Source: a virus. Taken from it: a stretch of DNA of 39,259 nt. The stretch spans positions 1 to 39,259 of IMG/VR virus record IMGVR_UViG_3300005563_000063. One strand, written 5' to 3'. The translations under genes were made by a program, and so were the position numbers. The notes beneath the pieces are model-generated. The model did no database searches. It was given only the letters and a program-made list of their open reading frames with translations, and was not told the origin of the DNA. Positions 3,414-39,144 of this stretch are shown here, piece after piece (positions within the stretch are counted from its first letter, which is position 1; each line of letters starts with the position of its first letter).

Positions 3414-4042
3414 ACACGAACAACGACAAAGGAGCCACGAACGTGGCGAACGATACCCCCGCCGCGCTGTTGCCGGAAATCGGCGAATATGTGCTAGCAA
3501 CGAAGTATAGCGATGGCGACCCCGGCGATCCGTGGGCGCTTGGTTTCTACGCTGGTGTTACCGAGCGCGGAAGGCATCTTGTGAAGGACTCGAATGGCGA
3601 TCAAATTCGTGCAGGCGGGTTCCGCCGTGTCGGTCGCATCGAACAGGAAGTAGGGACGTGGTTGTGGAATAACCGCGTTGCGCTCGAATCGTCTCCGCCC
3701 GGCACCGTCAATCTGTGGGCGCTCGTTAAGCGCGATGAGCCAGACTCCACCGCTCCCGTTGCAAGCGAGAGCCGAGGGAGCGTGCCGGAGGGGTGGGTGC
3801 TGGTGCCGCGTAAGGCGACGCAAGAAATGCTTCGGGCCGGCTACTACGCACCTATTAACCATTCAGCACTGAATGGGCAAAGCAACAACGCAGTTCGCAT
3901 GAAGTTGGAGATTTCTCCGATCTGGAGTCGGATGATTGGCGCCGCCCCCACGCCGCCCGGCAACGAGGCGCTTCGTGAAGTACGCGAACGCGCCAAGGAA
4001 ATTGCACTCGCCCGCAGCGCAGCGGCGAAGGGGGAAGGATGA
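3410..4042 (+). CDS. Early phage protein with VPEGW/AAP module
   Basis: 210 aa. The N-terminal domain is beta-rich (IGEYVLATKYSDGDPGDPWALGFYAG). Around residues 123-175 it carries SVPEGWVLVPRKATQEMLRAGYY...IWSRMIGAAPTP, the common small phage module 'PEGW.LVP..PT.EM..A...Y..ML.AAP'. A C-terminal charged helix follows. Starts at ATGA. Function unknown. Confidence 0.75.
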   Translation: MNTNNDKGATNVANDTPAALLPEIGEYVLATKYSDGDPGDPWALGFYAGVTERGRHLVKDSNGDQIRAGGFRRVGRIEQEVGTWLWNNRVALESSPPGTVNLWALVKRDEPDSTAPVASESRGSVPEGWVLVPRKATQEMLRAGYYAPINHSALNGQSNNAVRMKLEISPIWSRMIGAAPTPPGNEALREVRERAKEIALARSAAAKGEG

Positions 4043-26245: not shown

Positions 26246-26974
26246 ATGCCTACCGCACCGCCCCTCTCGCAATTCAACGTCAATGCGCCAATGGTGAACG
26301 GCATTTCGCAGACCCCGACCGGTGTTGCGCTGACGAGCGTCGGCAACAACGAACTGCTGAGCAACCAGCTTGGCAACCTCATGCGCAGCGACAATCCGCT
26401 CGTGCAGAACGCGCAACAGAACGCCCGCGCGTTCGCGGCAGCCCGTGGCGCCGGCCTCTCGGGCAGTCTCTACAGCGACGCGGCCACACGCGCCGCGTAC
26501 GACCAGATGATGCCGATCGCGCAGTTCGACGCGGGCCAGTACGCGGACGTGCGCGACCGCAATCAGGAGGCGCTGAACCAGCAGAACATCGAACGGATGG
26601 GCAACCAGACGTCCGTGCAGGTCGCTGGCATCGGTGCGCGCGCACAACACGATGCCTTGATCGAGCAGGCCCGCCAGTTCGACATCAACCAGCAGAACCG
26701 TCAACAGAACCGCGAGTGGGAGCTGGCGGACCAGCGCGCCGCCGCACGGGCGAACCAGCGTTCGGCCACTTTCAACACACTCCTTCAAGCGGCCTTTTCC
26801 GATCCGTCGATCTGGCGCGATCCGCAAGGTGTGATGGGCTTCTTCAACACCTATTCGTCGAACATCGACGACATGCTGTCGAACTTGTTCCCAGAATATC
26901 AGGAGCCGGGCACAGCCGCGCCCGACACGAACCCGCGACCGGGCTACGCGCTGCCCGCAGGAGGTACGCCGTGA
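26246..26974 (+). CDS. Ejection-type virion protein with two P[LI][SA]QF motifs
   Basis: 242 aa. PLSQF at residues 6-10 and PIAQF at 90-94 are two instances of the motif shared by this block. The body is helical and rich in Gln, Asn and Ala (NPLVQNAQQNARAFAAARGA, RQFDINQQNRQQNREWELAD), as in internal or ejected proteins of podoviruses. The C-terminal tail is Pro-rich. First gene after the nozzle. Confidence 0.7.
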   Translation: MPTAPPLSQFNVNAPMVNGISQTPTGVALTSVGNNELLSNQLGNLMRSDNPLVQNAQQNARAFAAARGAGLSGSLYSDAATRAAYDQMMPIAQFDAGQYADVRDRNQEALNQQNIERMGNQTSVQVAGIGARAQHDALIEQARQFDINQQNRQQNREWELADQRAAARANQRSATFNTLLQAAFSDPSIWRDPQGVMGFFNTYSSNIDDMLSNLFPEYQEPGTAAPDTNPRPGYALPAGGTP

Positions 26975-27432
26975 GCCGTCCCGTGAAGCCCTTCAACGGA
27001 CCACGCCGCCAGGGCGGTTGGATTGGACTCGCCGTCGCTGTCGTCGGCGCCTACGCGTCGTCCCGTTCGCAGAGTGCGCAGAACAAGGACAAGGACAAAA
27101 TGTCCTACGAAAGCCAGCGCGACCTCTCGAATCTGGACTTCCAGCAGCGCCAGTGGTTGCAGGAACAGGCCCGCGCGTGGCAGTTGCAGGACAAGCAGTT
27201 CGACCTGAACTACAAGGAGAACGCGATTGCGGGCTTCCGCGACGCGGCTCCCCCCAACAGCGTGGGCGACAACGGCGCGTGGGGCGCCCCGCCTGCGCCC
27301 ACGTCGATCGACACGTCCAACCTCGCCCGCACGCAAGCGAACGGACAGGCGGCGATTGTCGATCCGCGCACGGGCCAGCCCGTGAACGCGAATGCGGTAC
27401 CCTTGTCGCAATTCGGAGGTGGGTATGGCTGA
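26971..27432 (+). CDS. Ejection-type protein with membrane segment and C-terminal PLSQF
   Basis: 153 aa, GTG in a GTGA overlap with GCAGGAGGTAC upstream. A Gly/Ala/Val hydrophobic segment (residues about 16-31, GGWIGLAVAVVGAYAS) could insert in a membrane. A Gln-rich coiled coil (LDFQQRQWLQEQARAWQLQD) and a disordered end follow, finishing PLSQFGGGYG (PLSQF at 144-148). Likely part of the genome-ejection complex. Confidence 0.65.
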   Translation: MSRPVKPFNGPRRQGGWIGLAVAVVGAYASSRSQSAQNKDKDKMSYESQRDLSNLDFQQRQWLQEQARAWQLQDKQFDLNYKENAIAGFRDAAPPNSVGDNGAWGAPPAPTSIDTSNLARTQANGQAAIVDPRTGQPVNANAVPLSQFGGGYG

Positions 27433-28883: not shown

Positions 28884-31800
28884 ATGGCCCCCGAAGTCGA
28901 TTGGTCCCAATTCACCACCGAGCCTCCGCCGGAAGCAGCGCCGGCGACACCGGAGGATGTGGACTGGTCGCAGTTCACGGAGCAGCCGCCCGACTTCGGC
29001 AACGTCCAGTCCGGCTCCGCGTCTGCGCCGCTTGCGCAGTTCCAGCCGAGCGCGTGGGAGCGCATGAAGGCGAGCGCACGCCAGATCGGCGACCAGATGG
29101 CGACCGGCGCGCAGGCGATCTTGCAGGGCGGTGACTACGAGGTCGCGCCCGACGATCCGCGCCAGCTCGTGTCCGATCCGGCCGTGTTCGGCCGTACGGT
29201 CGCGGGCGACGTGACCGGCATGGCGCAAATCGCCTACGACTACGGCACGCCGGCCGGCATTACCACCAAGTTGGCCGAGACATTCGGCGCGCCCAAGGTG
29301 GACCCCGTGCGCGCGTTGCTCGGCAAGCAGGCCGAAGCGGTCGAGTTCAACCCCGAAACGATGCGAGCGCAGTCACCGCGTGGCGAGGCGTTCGCCTCCG
29401 GCGTCGGGCACCTGCTCGCCGGCTACATCCCTGAATCCCGCCTCGCGAAAAGCCTCGACGACCTCCTGTCGCCAGAAGCGCGCGCGGTGATGAACGGTAG
29501 CCGGGAGGGGCGCGAGCTGGCCTTGACCGGCGACCTGGGCCCCGAAGCGCAAGGGAGCGCGACCGCCGATGAAATCCTGTCCCGAGCCGTTGCCGAACAG
29601 CCCCGTCCGCCTGCTGTTCCCGAGCGACCCGCTGCCGAGGTGGTGCCAGCCGAAGCAGCCGAATCCGTTCCGGGCGAAACTGGAATCGCTGTTCGGGGCA
29701 CGGAGAGCGCTCCTGCGCCCGCACCGGAAGCGGTCCTTGCGCCTCGTGCCGAAATCCCCGAAGCCGCTCCAGCGCCCTCCGGTGAAGCCGTAGAGGTATC
29801 GGAGCTATCGCCGGAGGATGTGCCGGAGGAATTCCGTGCGCGCCTCCAGCAACAAGAGACGCCGACGGCCGAAGCGACGCCCGAGGAGTTGGCCGCGTTC
29901 GAGCGCCAGCGCCAGCCCACGGAACCGGATGCGACGTTCGAGAACAACGCCAGCGGCGAGAGCGCGGCGAGTCTGGAAGCGCAGCACCGCATTGCGGACG
30001 AGAAGGCGGCCGGGCAGACGCGTGCGCTGATCGAGCCGAACGGCGAGGTGCGCCCGTTGGTCGGTGTCGATGCCGTGGATACGGTCGCCCGTCCGGGGCA
30101 GGTGATCGTCCAGCGCGGCATCGGCAAGGACGACTGGACGATCCTGTCCCACGGCGACAACCTGCCGCCTCGCCTTGCGCAGGCGCGGGTGAACGCCACG
30201 CGCAACAGGCTCGACGAGCTCCATGCCGCGCAGAACGAGGATCGCGGTCCGCTACCGGGTCCGATCGACACCAGCACGATTCCTTTCGAGTCCGCACAAG
30301 CCCTGCCGCCACGGCTGAGGAGCGCCCATGCCCGCACAGTACGAAGCGATACGCGACCGCCTGCTGTCGCAAGGGAAGTCCCGCAAGGAAGCCGAACGGA
30401 TCGCAGCGGCGACGTTCAATTCCCGCCGCCCGAAGGGCGCTCCATCCCTGAACGACTACGTGCAGGCGGAGAAGGAGCACCGCCCGCTCGCCCAATTCCA
30501 GCCGAAGGCGGCGGACGAGTAGAACCGCCCTCCGGGCGCCTGCCGCCAAGCGGAGAGGGCGGCAACCCCCGCCTGCCGTCCCGCCCCGGCGAAATCGCCA
30601 AGGTGCGCGGCATCTGGGATTCGGCCGTCGACGTGCTCAAGCGCTCGCCCGAGTTCCGCCCGCTCGGCGAGGCGGTGGAACGGCACTACGACACGATGCA
30701 GCGCCGCGAAGGCGAGGCGTCGAAGTTCCTGCGGGAAGCCTTTGCCGACAATCGTACGCTGAGCGATCCATTGAAGCGCCAGCGAAAGGCCGATCGCGAT
30801 GCGTTCGCCGAGTACCAAGCTGCGATCCAGAACGGCCGTACGCCGCCCAAGCTCACGCCCGGCGCGCAGAAGATGGTGGACGCGTGGCGCGGCTTCGCCG
30901 AGCACTCGGGCGCCGAGAATCAGCGCGTTGGCGTCAAGGTGTTCGATCCCAAGCTCGGCAAGTCCCGCCCGATCGGCCGCGCAAAGGACTTCTTCCCGCG
31001 CACGTTGAAGCGCGAGTACGCGGACGCGATGCGCGATCCCGGCAAGCACAAGGCGGCGTGGGAACGGATGGTCGGCATCCTCAAGGACAAGGGCGTCATC
31101 GACACGGACGAGGAGGCCGGCCGGTTCCTGCGCGATCACTTCGACGACACGAGCTCCAACGACTACTTCGCCGGCATCGAGAAGGCGCGCGGTGAGCCGT
31201 TGCCGGAAGAACTCTACGACTACAGCACGGACGCGGCGGTCCGTTACGCGAAGCGCTGGGCCGAGCGCCTGAGCCAGATTGAAGCGTTCGGGCAGAAGCT
31301 CGGCGAGTACGACAAGGACCTGTTCGACGTGTTCAAGGGCAAGACCACGGACGAGGGGACCAAGGCCTACATCGATGCCGTCGGCAAGCTTGTCTACAAC
31401 GTGCGCAGCAAGGACGACTTCGCCCGCTTCGCGCAGACCTTGAATACGATCGCGACGGGTTTGCAGCTCGGCAACCCGGCGACCTCGGCGCTGAACCTGA
31501 TCGGCGGCCTGTTCCAGAACGCGTCCACGTTCGGCGTATCGAACATGATCCGCGGACTGGCAGACCTTCGCCAGCTCTCCAAGGCGATCAAGGACGCGCA
31601 CGACATCGGCATTCTGCGCGGCGACTTCCTCGACCTCTTGCATGACAACGAGGTGATGGACGTGCCGCGGATCGCGAGCAACGCGACGAAGGTCGCGCTC
31701 TCGGTCGGAGGCTACAACCTCACCGAGTCGATCAACCGCATGCACGCGTACATGACCGCCAAGGCATGGCTGCGCGAAGCATTGAAAGCGAAGCCTGGCA

Positions 31801-33032
31801 GCGGCGCGGCGCGGCAGTACCAGCGCTTGCTCGACAAGTCCGGCGCGGACGTGGCCAAGCTCAAGGGCGGCGATGCTGCCGAGACGGAGAAGTTCTATCG
31901 CAAGGCGGTCAACGAGGCGCAGTTCTCCTACAACCTCACGCAGACGCCCGTCTACGCGAACACGCCGGTCGGCAAGTTCCTGCTGAAGTATCAGAAGTTC
32001 GGCCTTCAGATGTCGCGGTTCTACTGGCAGAACGTGATGGAGCCGTCCATCACGTCGCCGAATGCGCGTACGCTCGGCAACCTCCTGCGCTACTGGATCG
32101 CGGCAGCGGTAGGTGGCGGCCTGATCCTGTCGCTGCGGCAAAACCTGTTCGGCTATCAGAGCAGTGCGCCGGAGACGAGCGAAATCGAGAAGGCGTGGCA
32201 GGACAAGAAGTACCGCGACGCCATCACCCTCGCCGCGCATCGCGCGTGGGTGGGCAATCTCGCGATCGGCGGTCTCGGGTTCTTCTCCAACTATGTCCAG
32301 CTCGGGCAGGACATCGCGGACCGCCAGCGCGTGAAGAACCCGCTGAACCCACCCGGCATCGCGCCGATCGTCGGCCTCGCTAACCTCGGCCTCACGCTCT
32401 ACGACCAGAAGGGAACCGGCGTCAAGCGTGCGCTGGAAGAATTCGCCACGGCAAACGTGTCGGCCTACCGAACGGGCAAGCGCCTGCTGGGATTTGCGAC
32501 CGGCTCGGACAGTGCGGATCGCGACTATGCGTTCGCGAAGAAGATGACGCGCCGGTACGCGGACGATCGCAACATCGAGGCCAAGCGCCGCGCGCCGTCC
32601 GACATCATCGCGACGCCTATGACGCCCGTGAACAAGGACATCCACGACGCGCTGATCGTGGGCGATGCGAAGGAGGCCAAGCGCCTTGCGCGTGCCTACC
32701 TCGAATCGCTCGACACCGCGGCCGAGCAGAAGGCGGCGTGGAACAGCATGAAGGCCAGTGCCCGTGCGCGCCAGCCGACGCTCGTCAGCGTGTCCCCGTC
32801 CGCCGCCGAGCGCAGGGACTTCCTCGCGTGGGCGCGCGAGCACTTGGAGAAGCCCGAGTACGAGCGCATCACCCGCCTCGACGACACCTACCGCAACGCC
32901 GCGATTGAAGCGGGACTATTGCGGGAGGAGAATGCGGACAAGCTCGACCGCGCGGCCGGCAAGCGCGAGCAGGAGCGGCAGGAAAAGCTCTCGCCGGATG
33001 CGCTGGATAAGATGCTCGGAGACACCGAATGA
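28884..33032 (+). CDS. Large ejection (internal virion) protein, 1382 aa
   Basis: The longest gene. Its N-terminus has VDWSQF at 5-10 and again at 26-31, then PLAQFQP at 49-55. Residues about 210-360 are low-complexity Pro/Ala/Glu-rich. A Pro/Gly/Arg-rich linker (about 480-570) overlaps the nested gene at 30328. From about residue 575 a large helical region follows (VLKRSPEFRPLGEAVERHYD... GLQLGNPATSALNLIGGLFQ... TESINRMHAYMTAKAWLREA), resembling the helical domains of phage large internal or polyvalent proteins. Hydrophobic segment at about 1066-1085. Probably stored in the capsid and ejected with the DNA. No catalytic motif identified. Confidence 0.75.
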   Translation: MAPEVDWSQFTTEPPPEAAPATPEDVDWSQFTEQPPDFGNVQSGSASAPLAQFQPSAWERMKASARQIGDQMATGAQAILQGGDYEVAPDDPRQLVSDPAVFGRTVAGDVTGMAQIAYDYGTPAGITTKLAETFGAPKVDPVRALLGKQAEAVEFNPETMRAQSPRGEAFASGVGHLLAGYIPESRLAKSLDDLLSPEARAVMNGSREGRELALTGDLGPEAQGSATADEILSRAVAEQPRPPAVPERPAAEVVPAEAAESVPGETGIAVRGTESAPAPAPEAVLAPRAEIPEAAPAPSGEAVEVSELSPEDVPEEFRARLQQQETPTAEATPEELAAFERQRQPTEPDATFENNASGESAASLEAQHRIADEKAAGQTRALIEPNGEVRPLVGVDAVDTVARPGQVIVQRGIGKDDWTILSHGDNLPPRLAQARVNATRNRLDELHAAQNEDRGPLPGPIDTSTIPFESAQALPPRLRSAHARTVRSDTRPPAVAREVPQGSRTDRSGDVQFPPPEGRSIPERLRAGGEGAPPARPIPAEGGGRVEPPSGRLPPSGEGGNPRLPSRPGEIAKVRGIWDSAVDVLKRSPEFRPLGEAVERHYDTMQRREGEASKFLREAFADNRTLSDPLKRQRKADRDAFAEYQAAIQNGRTPPKLTPGAQKMVDAWRGFAEHSGAENQRVGVKVFDPKLGKSRPIGRAKDFFPRTLKREYADAMRDPGKHKAAWERMVGILKDKGVIDTDEEAGRFLRDHFDDTSSNDYFAGIEKARGEPLPEELYDYSTDAAVRYAKRWAERLSQIEAFGQKLGEYDKDLFDVFKGKTTDEGTKAYIDAVGKLVYNVRSKDDFARFAQTLNTIATGLQLGNPATSALNLIGGLFQNASTFGVSNMIRGLADLRQLSKAIKDAHDIGILRGDFLDLLHDNEVMDVPRIASNATKVALSVGGYNLTESINRMHAYMTAKAWLREALKAKPGSGAARQYQRLLDKSGADVAKLKGGDAAETEKFYRKAVNEAQFSYNLTQTPVYANTPVGKFLLKYQKFGLQMSRFYWQNVMEPSITSPNARTLGNLLRYWIAAAVGGGLILSLRQNLFGYQSSAPETSEIEKAWQDKKYRDAITLAAHRAWVGNLAIGGLGFFSNYVQLGQDIADRQRVKNPLNPPGIAPIVGLANLGLTLYDQKGTGVKRALEEFATANVSAYRTGKRLLGFATGSDSADRDYAFAKKMTRRYADDRNIEAKRRAPSDIIATPMTPVNKDIHDALIVGDAKEAKRLARAYLESLDTAAEQKAAWNSMKASARARQPTLVSVSPSAAERRDFLAWAREHLEKPEYERITRLDDTYRNAAIEAGLLREENADKLDRAAGKREQERQEKLSPDALDKMLGDTE
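30328..30522 (+). CDS. Nested 64-aa gene inside the large ejection gene (+1 frame)
   Basis: The ATG at 30328 is preceded by GAGGAG at 30317-30322, an ideal Shine-Dalgarno spacing. The protein starts MPAQYEAIRDRLLSQGKSRK then EAERIAAATFN, which resembles free-standing small phage proteins of the 'Y.AIRD.L...G.S...A.RIAAA.FN' type. It ends HRPLAQFQPKAADE, with PLAQF at 53-57, the motif of the surrounding virion proteins. By hand count, third positions are about 83% G/C in this frame but about 47% in the host gene's frame over the same bases, so the nested frame looks like the coding one. It is probably translated from its own start. Confidence 0.7.
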   Translation: MPAQYEAIRDRLLSQGKSRKEAERIAAATFNSRRPKGAPSLNDYVQAEKEHRPLAQFQPKAADE

Positions 33033-37738: not shown

Positions 37739-37901
37739 GGGTTACCTCCCAGCGGAATATCGAATACACGAGCCATGTAGCGCCGTCGCTTAGAGCGCAT
37801 TCGTCTGCGACTACACGCCCGGTTCGATCCATAACACACGCTTCATCCATTGTCTCGCTTATCTTCGTCGCATCACGACTCGAACGCGGGGGCGTATCCA
37901 T
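37725..37901 (-). CDS. 58-aa hypothetical protein
   Basis: ATG at 37901, inside the end of the DUF6745 gene, with GAGGTGAGGAGG abutting it; stop overlaps the DnaT-like gene by 14 bases. Reads MDTPPRSSRDATKISETMDE ... GATWLVYSIFRWEVTREC. The spacing of the Shine-Dalgarno is unusually short. Moderate support. Confidence 0.5.
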   Translation of the reverse strand: MDTPPRSSRDATKISETMDEACVMDRTGRVVADECALSDGATWLVYSIFRWEVTRECA

Positions 37902-39144
37902 CCTCCTCACCTCGCAATCCGAAGGTACTCGCCACCGCATTGCGGGCCGTCAGTGCCTGCGGATCGCCGCGCCAGCCGTCCGCGCGCATTGGGCGAAGGT
38001 CCGGGTCGACGCGCAGGAAATACTCTTTCCACCGCGTGTCCCGCGTTGCCTTCGCCGCCAGATGCGCCGCCGGGCCGAAGGTGGCGATCGCCTCGTCCCG
38101 CGTCATCGTGCCGTCCGGCTCGGGCGTGGAGTTCAGCACGCGCACCATCACCAGCGGCTCGTCGTCGGGCTGCTCCTTGCGGTAGAGGATGCCGTATTCG
38201 TCGTGGCTGACGACCTTCGCGCCGGAGTCGACGAGGTAGCGGCCGGCGCCGTACTTCTCCGTCAGCACGCGCCGCACTTCGGCGTTGCGCTCGCTCTCGA
38301 TCATCGACACGGTGATCTTCTGCGGCTCCTCGACGACGAGCGCGGGCACGGCGACGCCGTGGATGTGATAGCCCCGCCAGCCGTCGCGGAACACGTAGGA
38401 CGGTCCGTCCGCGTTGTGCAGGCGGTTGCTCGCGTCCATGCCGATGCGCTGCGCGGGGAAGTCCGACACCATGCAGAAGTCGTCCCCCATCCAGCGGAAC
38501 CCGCCCTCCTTGGCGCACGCCTCCCACGCGGCGAACTTCTCCGCCTGCGGCAGGCGCAGGCCCAGCACGTCCCGCAGACCGCACAGGTACGACGGCCACG
38601 CCGCCATCATGTTGCCGCCTTGGTAGTGCTGCTCCCACTCGCGCATGCGCTGGATCATTGCCTTGGCGAGCGCACCCTTGCCGCCAATCGTCTCGGCCAG
38701 CGCCCGCGCCATCGCGGGTCGGCTTTCCGGGATCGGCGAGTCCTTGCCGGGCGGCGCGTAGGGCAGCGTACTGCCCGTCAGCGCGGAGACGACCGCCTGC
38801 ACGACCTGCCACTCCAGCGGCCCGAAGGGCGACTTCTGGCTTGCGTCGCTGATGCGCTTCAAGCACGCGTCCTCGGCCTTCGCCTGCTTGATCGCGGACG
38901 CGAACCCGCCTGCGACCGCCATCACCAGCGGCGACGAGACGACGATCACCTGCGGCGCGGCGAGGCCGGAGGCGGTGTACAGCGACTGGATCGCCGGGAC
39001 GATCTTCGCTTCGTCGATCGGCGTGGAGCGGAAGGCGACCTCCGTCCAGTACGCCGCCACCTCGCGCAAGCGCGCCTTCTCGTCCTCGGACAAGGGTCCG
39101 GCGACGTAGTCGGGCGTGCGGATTACTTCCTGATTTTCTGCCAT
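37873..39144 (-). CDS. DUF6745 family protein
   Basis: 423 aa, AAGAAGGGGAG upstream of ATG. The N-terminal 230 residues are helical. The diagnostic part starts at HNADGPSYVFRDGW (243-256) and GYHIHGVAVPALVV (259-271) and continues through ITVSMIESERNAEVRRVLTE, a YGAGRYLVDSGAKVV segment, YRKEQPDDEPLVMVRVLNST and PEPDG (321-345), then KEYFLRVDPDLRP (373-385) and ASTFGL. These match DUF6745 as I know it. Function is not established. It lies downstream of a partner protein that crosses the contig junction. Confidence 0.88.
   Translation of the reverse strand: MAENQEVIRTPDYVAGPLSEDEKARLREVAAYWTEVAFRSTPIDEAKIVPAIQSLYTASGLAAPQVIVVSSPLVMAVAGGFASAIKQAKAEDACLKRISDASQKSPFGPLEWQVVQAVVSALTGSTLPYAPPGKDSPIPESRPAMARALAETIGGKGALAKAMIQRMREWEQHYQGGNMMAAWPSYLCGLRDVLGLRLPQAEKFAAWEACAKEGGFRWMGDDFCMVSDFPAQRIGMDASNRLHNADGPSYVFRDGWRGYHIHGVAVPALVVEEPQKITVSMIESERNAEVRRVLTEKYGAGRYLVDSGAKVVSHDEYGILYRKEQPDDEPLVMVRVLNSTPEPDGTMTRDEAIATFGPAAHLAAKATRDTRWKEYFLRVDPDLRPMRADGWRGDPQALTARNAVASTFGLRGEEDGYAPAFES

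Follow-up and report, generated by a model that had tools for sequence, protein, structure and literature searches.

The closest described parallel to the locus analysed here is the out-of-frame insertion of HNH endonuclease genes into phage methylases, known from the ShiLan domain and Pacc40 gp60 (PMC11855218). There, as here, a large phage ORF containing a gene read in another frame remains open, the insert read in the host frame gives a loop or a disordered segment, and related free-standing genes exist, in the ShiLan case adjoining the host gene. The nested product in those phages is a homing endonuclease without a detectable RBS, whereas in the present case a canonical Shine-Dalgarno (SD) sequence precedes the gene and the product is a small hairpin protein. 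Unlike the ShiLan host, the present hosts are many unrelated giant, cysteine-poor polyvalent or virion proteins, and stand-alone kin of the nested gene lie in packaging modules. Two further systems resemble the hosts rather than the insert. Polyvalent proteins are marked by LPD38, InPase, ART-PolyVal and like domains (Iyer et al. 2017, PMC5512222), and the main text of that study nowhere mentions overlapping genes or frameshifts. N4-like virion RNA polymerases are described, in the sections consulted of PMC2784036 and PMC3715699, as giant, cysteine-free and ejected with the DNA, the absence of cysteine being thought to ease passage into the cell; no nested gene is described for them in those sections. 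A literature search, with subscription journals mostly outside its scope, returned no description of the present case.

The window, by which we mean the whole 39,259-nucleotide stretch of viral DNA, contains a plus-strand ORF of 1382 aa (28884 to 33032) that is stop-free throughout. Entirely within it, on the same strand and in the +1 frame, lies an ORF of 64 aa (30328 to 30522) with its ATG at 30328 and its stop codon at 30520-30522. The SD sequence GAGGAG occupies 30317 to 30322, 5 nt before the nested ATG. The preliminary description had reported this arrangement from the sequence alone, and both the nested ORF with its SD and the open host frame are located where it placed them. Its reading of the surrounding host segment as a linker rich in Pro, Gly and Arg, here within a large gene of the virion block, holds as well: the host-frame segment across the nested gene (30327 to 30524) is rich in Gly, Pro, Arg and Glu, and separates a host N-module (28884 to 30326), common to the window and its closest relative, the syntenic L080, from a C-module (30525 to 33032) without homologue in L080. 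Third-position G/C, estimated earlier at about 83% in the nested frame and 47% in the host frame, was computed over the shared bases as 82.8% and 46.2%, respectively, against 80-88.5% for the host outside the overlap. When the host was shuffled synonymously, an out-of-frame ATG ORF of at least 64 aa arose in 98.6% of shuffles, and such an ORF together with a strong SD in 5.4%. The length of the ORF is thus unremarkable in this host, and the case for the nested gene rests on homology.

What does the nested frame encode? When viral contigs were first searched with the 64-aa protein, 17 loci sharing its N-terminal half were returned. The family was widened by DNA patterns for the gene start, with candidates scored by profile; members were found via a conserved start, so all family frequencies given below are conditional on that start. 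Every family locus is metagenomic except that of Thermus phage phiYS40. L126 and L138, which lie at opposite ends of the same contig, entered the count as one. The family motif is approximately MPxQYEAIRD-x(~11)-A-x(3)-AA-x-I-YN-x-(K/R)H-P, followed by a mostly basic tail, and the window protein has the N-terminal MPxQYE, the AA..(Y/F/W)N core and the hairpin by which members are recognized. AlphaFold2 predicts this helical hairpin at nested residues 3-14 and 19-33 (30334 to 30426), with a pLDDT of about 90-95 over residues 1-30 and a loose tail. About half of the members found are stand-alone genes, in keeping with the earlier remark that the N-terminus looks like that of stand-alone small phage proteins. 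Several of these lie in head/packaging modules beside TerL, portal or capsid genes: one is shortly upstream of the terminase and portal genes (L094), another upstream of a terminase (L098), and a third between an SU10-type portal gene, which it directly follows, and the capsid gene (L104).

Across 84,980 genomes of bacteria and archaea, the start pattern occurs in 5 places, none of them a family member; as judged by this search, the family is virus-only. DNA and protein searches of 50,697 annotated phages found no relatives of the host or the nested gene, and a search of annotated phages with the family consensus matched only phiYS40/TMA. In phiYS40, the N-terminal 34 residues of YS40_168 are 44% identical to the consensus and share its start methionine, but the protein is 361 aa long, the hairpin being joined to a larger C-terminal part, and its gene is not nested. 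The hairpin is also N-terminal in two longer proteins of 174-178 aa with a Pro/Gly-rich tail (L166, L167). Two families of unknown function, DUF7218 (PF23855) and phrog_32268, show weak profile similarity over the hairpin in 15 and 18 of 34 family members, respectively. The window protein scores 15.3 bits (E 0.023) against DUF7218, below the gathering cut-off of 27, and was not assigned to it. It has no match in PHROG, fold searches with the hairpin gave nothing significant, and a PDB sequence search gave matches at chance level.

In 28 members, the window's included, the small gene is entirely enclosed by a larger same-strand ORF, which measures from 756 to over 4,300 aa (L075-L091, L155-L164 and the window), and in all 28 the small gene is in the +1 frame. 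A 29th nested case, L183, was found by a search with a host domain rather than the small gene. The nested loci range in GC from 0.37 to 0.66, some of them lying at 0.37-0.44, a range in which chance cannot account for long ORFs. An SD core precedes 25 of the 28 nested starts; among the remaining out-of-frame ATGs of these hosts, 176 of 1321 (13.3%) have one (p=3e-19). The copies without a good SD are those of L078, L081 and L091. Beyond the SD, nothing is conserved in the flanks. Phase-1 overlaps are known to be commoner in general (PMC2542354), and a phase bias is expected here, since in the +1 phase the stops of the host frame depend on the third base of nested codons. The nested ORF is very probably a real overprinted member of the family, expressed by internal initiation. 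One nested copy, L084 (start at 3892, minus strand), has a premature TAG at codon 15 with homology continuing past the stop, and could be either a decaying copy or one with a recoded stop.

Are both frames under selection? Where nested members have an open host frame, stand-alone homologues have as many as 13 stops. At two-fold codons of the nested frame where a third-base T would create a host stop, T was found at 0 of 129 sites (52.6 expected), a count that is not independent because openness of the host frame partly defined the nested cases. At harmless two-fold sites, T is also depleted (17 of 140, against 53.9 expected from each host's codon use), which provides independent evidence for constraint on the host frame. 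A few close pairs extend this to both frames. The hosts L075 and L160 are 95% identical in amino acids over the 150 codons upstream, and their nested core is a divergent allele, yet both frames are open; in the conserved nested tail, changes occur at a rate of 0.24 at nested position 3, versus 0.07 at position 1 and 0.14 at position 2. These are near-identical giant polyvalent genes (93% in the C part) in which the nested core and about 50 following codons have been replaced, and by alignment the pair is a natural allele swap inside a dual-coded stretch. Between the window and L080, the nested protein is about 56-59% identical (56% over 61 aa), the host frame over the nested gene 41%, and the host N-module about 51-57%. 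The outcome named beforehand as counting against the gene, loss of the nested frame from homologues or no suppression of synonymous change there, did not appear: homologues keep the nested frame, and overlapping pairs differ mostly at nested position 3.

Where a host can be assigned to a class, it is a modular 'polyvalent' protein. In seven of the scanned hosts (L075, L078, L081, L085, L086, L090 and L156), Pfam detected LPD38, InPase, ART-PolyVal, ddrB-ParB, strawberry-notch helicase, methylase and RadC domains, so that several hosts share with polyvalent proteins the LPD38, InPase, ART-PolyVal, ddrB-ParB and helicase/methylase domains. The remaining scanned hosts, the window's among them, gave no polyvalent or LPD domain by Pfam, and in this the window's host differs from polyvalent proteins; it matches nothing in Pfam or PHROG. 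Together, the 28 hosts have 12 cysteines in 61,784 aa, whereas cysteine makes up 1.06% of the other long ORFs at these loci, and the window's host has none in 1382 aa. ORFs with an InPase domain are generally cysteine-poor too (82 in 159,516). The hosts therefore resemble the N4-like virion polymerases in being giant and nearly cysteine-free, but the scanned hosts give no RNA polymerase match. Near-absence of cysteine makes ejection likely. For the window's host, the absence of cysteine and a location in the virion gene block, with terminase, head and adaptor genes upstream, are suggestive of a virion-ejected protein, and the label of ejection gene given to it earlier is plausible.

A second feature connects the nested protein with virion proteins. 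The preliminary description had pointed to a PLAQFQP tag at the end of the nested product, shared with surrounding virion proteins and hard to explain by chance. The tag is present at the C-terminus of the nested protein (30484 to 30504, nested frame) and at the N-terminus of the host (29028 to 29048, host frame). More generally, seven virion-block proteins have a single P[LM][AS]QF each, where shuffles predict 0.01: between 26246 and 33911 its carriers are the ORFs starting at 26246, 26716, 27392, 27739 and 33381, the host at 28884 and the nested protein, and it mostly lies near a terminus of its carrier. The syntenic L080 also has the tag, and in the unrelated phage L159 the sequence PAISQF is common to the nested protein and a tape-measure-like ORF. 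This distribution suggests that the nested protein may bind the same partner as the six other tagged proteins. From the tag, position and composition, a role in virion assembly or in the docking of ejected proteins is possible, though we put it short of probable.

How would such an arrangement work? In the explanation we favor, the nested ORF would be translated by internal initiation at its own SD within the host mRNA, yielding a small, mostly basic helical-hairpin protein of a virus-specific family whose genes stand alone, several of them in head/packaging modules, or are overprinted in +1 in disordered inter-module linkers. The hosts of nested copies would be giant cysteine-poor proteins, probably virion-ejected and often 'polyvalent', and the nested and giant proteins would presumably be co-expressed. 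Nesting may be tolerated for two reasons: stops arising in the host frame in the +1 phase could be removed by synonymous choice of the nested third base, and the host segment needs only to be a flexible linker. Homology, doubly open frames, the SD, two-frame constraint and mosaic context can all be read from the sequences; more tentatively, we would see in them a recurrent form of dual coding, in which a small virion-associated protein has been repeatedly embedded, in one fixed phase, in the linkers of ejected giants, and is co-inherited and co-expressed with them; for these giants it would act as an assembly factor or docking partner, by way of a PLAQF-like tag specific to the lineage.

How did the gene come to be nested? 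The host modules adjoining it are mostly unrelated between phages. In a tree of 56 members, nested and non-nested genes are interspersed, and 13 changes are required where shuffling gives a mean of 18.9; few branches are supported, which leaves the number of nesting origins unfixed. Among 75 loci retrieved by the InPase domain alone, four have the nested gene, indicating that it is dispensable for an InPase-type host. Such sporadic presence in unrelated hosts would also be expected of a mobile, selfish out-of-frame insert of the ShiLan kind, readable in the host frame and encoding its own protein in another. The allele replacement between L075 and L160 and the precedent with HNH endonucleases favor that account, which is compatible with real expression and differs from ours over what maintains the gene in place. 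We nevertheless consider it unlikely, given that Pfam detects neither an HNH nor any other nuclease signature in the 45-80 aa protein, the insert ends are as unconserved as described above, and several stand-alone copies reside in packaging modules. A homing insertion proper was rejected for want of any nuclease match. Nor was a base-level empty site found among InPase hosts; the nearest candidates, L204 and L205, have flanking modules that are about 40-50% identical, and in the linker of similar length between them the profile detects no nested gene. Whole-record searches of 40 InPase-host records yielded no convincing family member except in the L084 record, and one marginal match (E 9.5e-4) inside a 6,630-aa frame.

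The earlier proposal that a small gene lying between two ancestral genes became enclosed when these fused fared poorly. The nested gene does sit at a module junction, which favors fusion, but no locus was found in which separate N and C genes flank the small gene, L080 retains the window's N-module and nested gene with an unrelated C-module, and the many unrelated host contexts would require as many separate fusions. We regard fusion as improbable. Repeated insertion or module exchange at linkers, with the nested arrangement arising or being transferred several times, fits best with a gene found in so many unrelated hosts, as far as these comparisons go.

Could selection instead act on the host-frame linker as a transferable cassette, with the nested ORF a by-product? 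Host-frame overlap peptides do match one another (D-A-x-x-[VI]-R-S-D...), and L084 keeps its host frame despite the nested-frame stop. That similarity, however, follows from the nested codons, stand-alone genes keep the protein while having stops in the corresponding frame, SDs are enriched at nested starts, and it is nested position 3 that varies most; the by-product account is thus very improbable. A chance ORF, readily as such frames arise in the shuffles, is refuted by nested and stand-alone relatives with SDs in dozens of phages, and we give it virtually no weight.

Overprinted genes are usually viewed as de novo proteins, each born once inside an older gene. An existing family that has apparently entered unrelated giant genes again and again, keeping to one phase, and whose stand-alone members serve as a comparison, would amount to a replicated natural experiment on how genes become nested. 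The nested protein is of a kind that gene callers would discard as overlapping, and it may provide a way into the little-understood assembly of the giant, cysteine-poor phage proteins that are ejected.

Two minor observations concern other ORFs of the window. The ORF listed at 26716-27432 begins inside the gene at 26246-26974, and its true start is probably near 26970, judged from its 145-aa counterpart in L080. On the strand opposite the virion block, a 423-aa ORF (37873-39144, minus) has a strong match to DUF6745 (E 1e-40).
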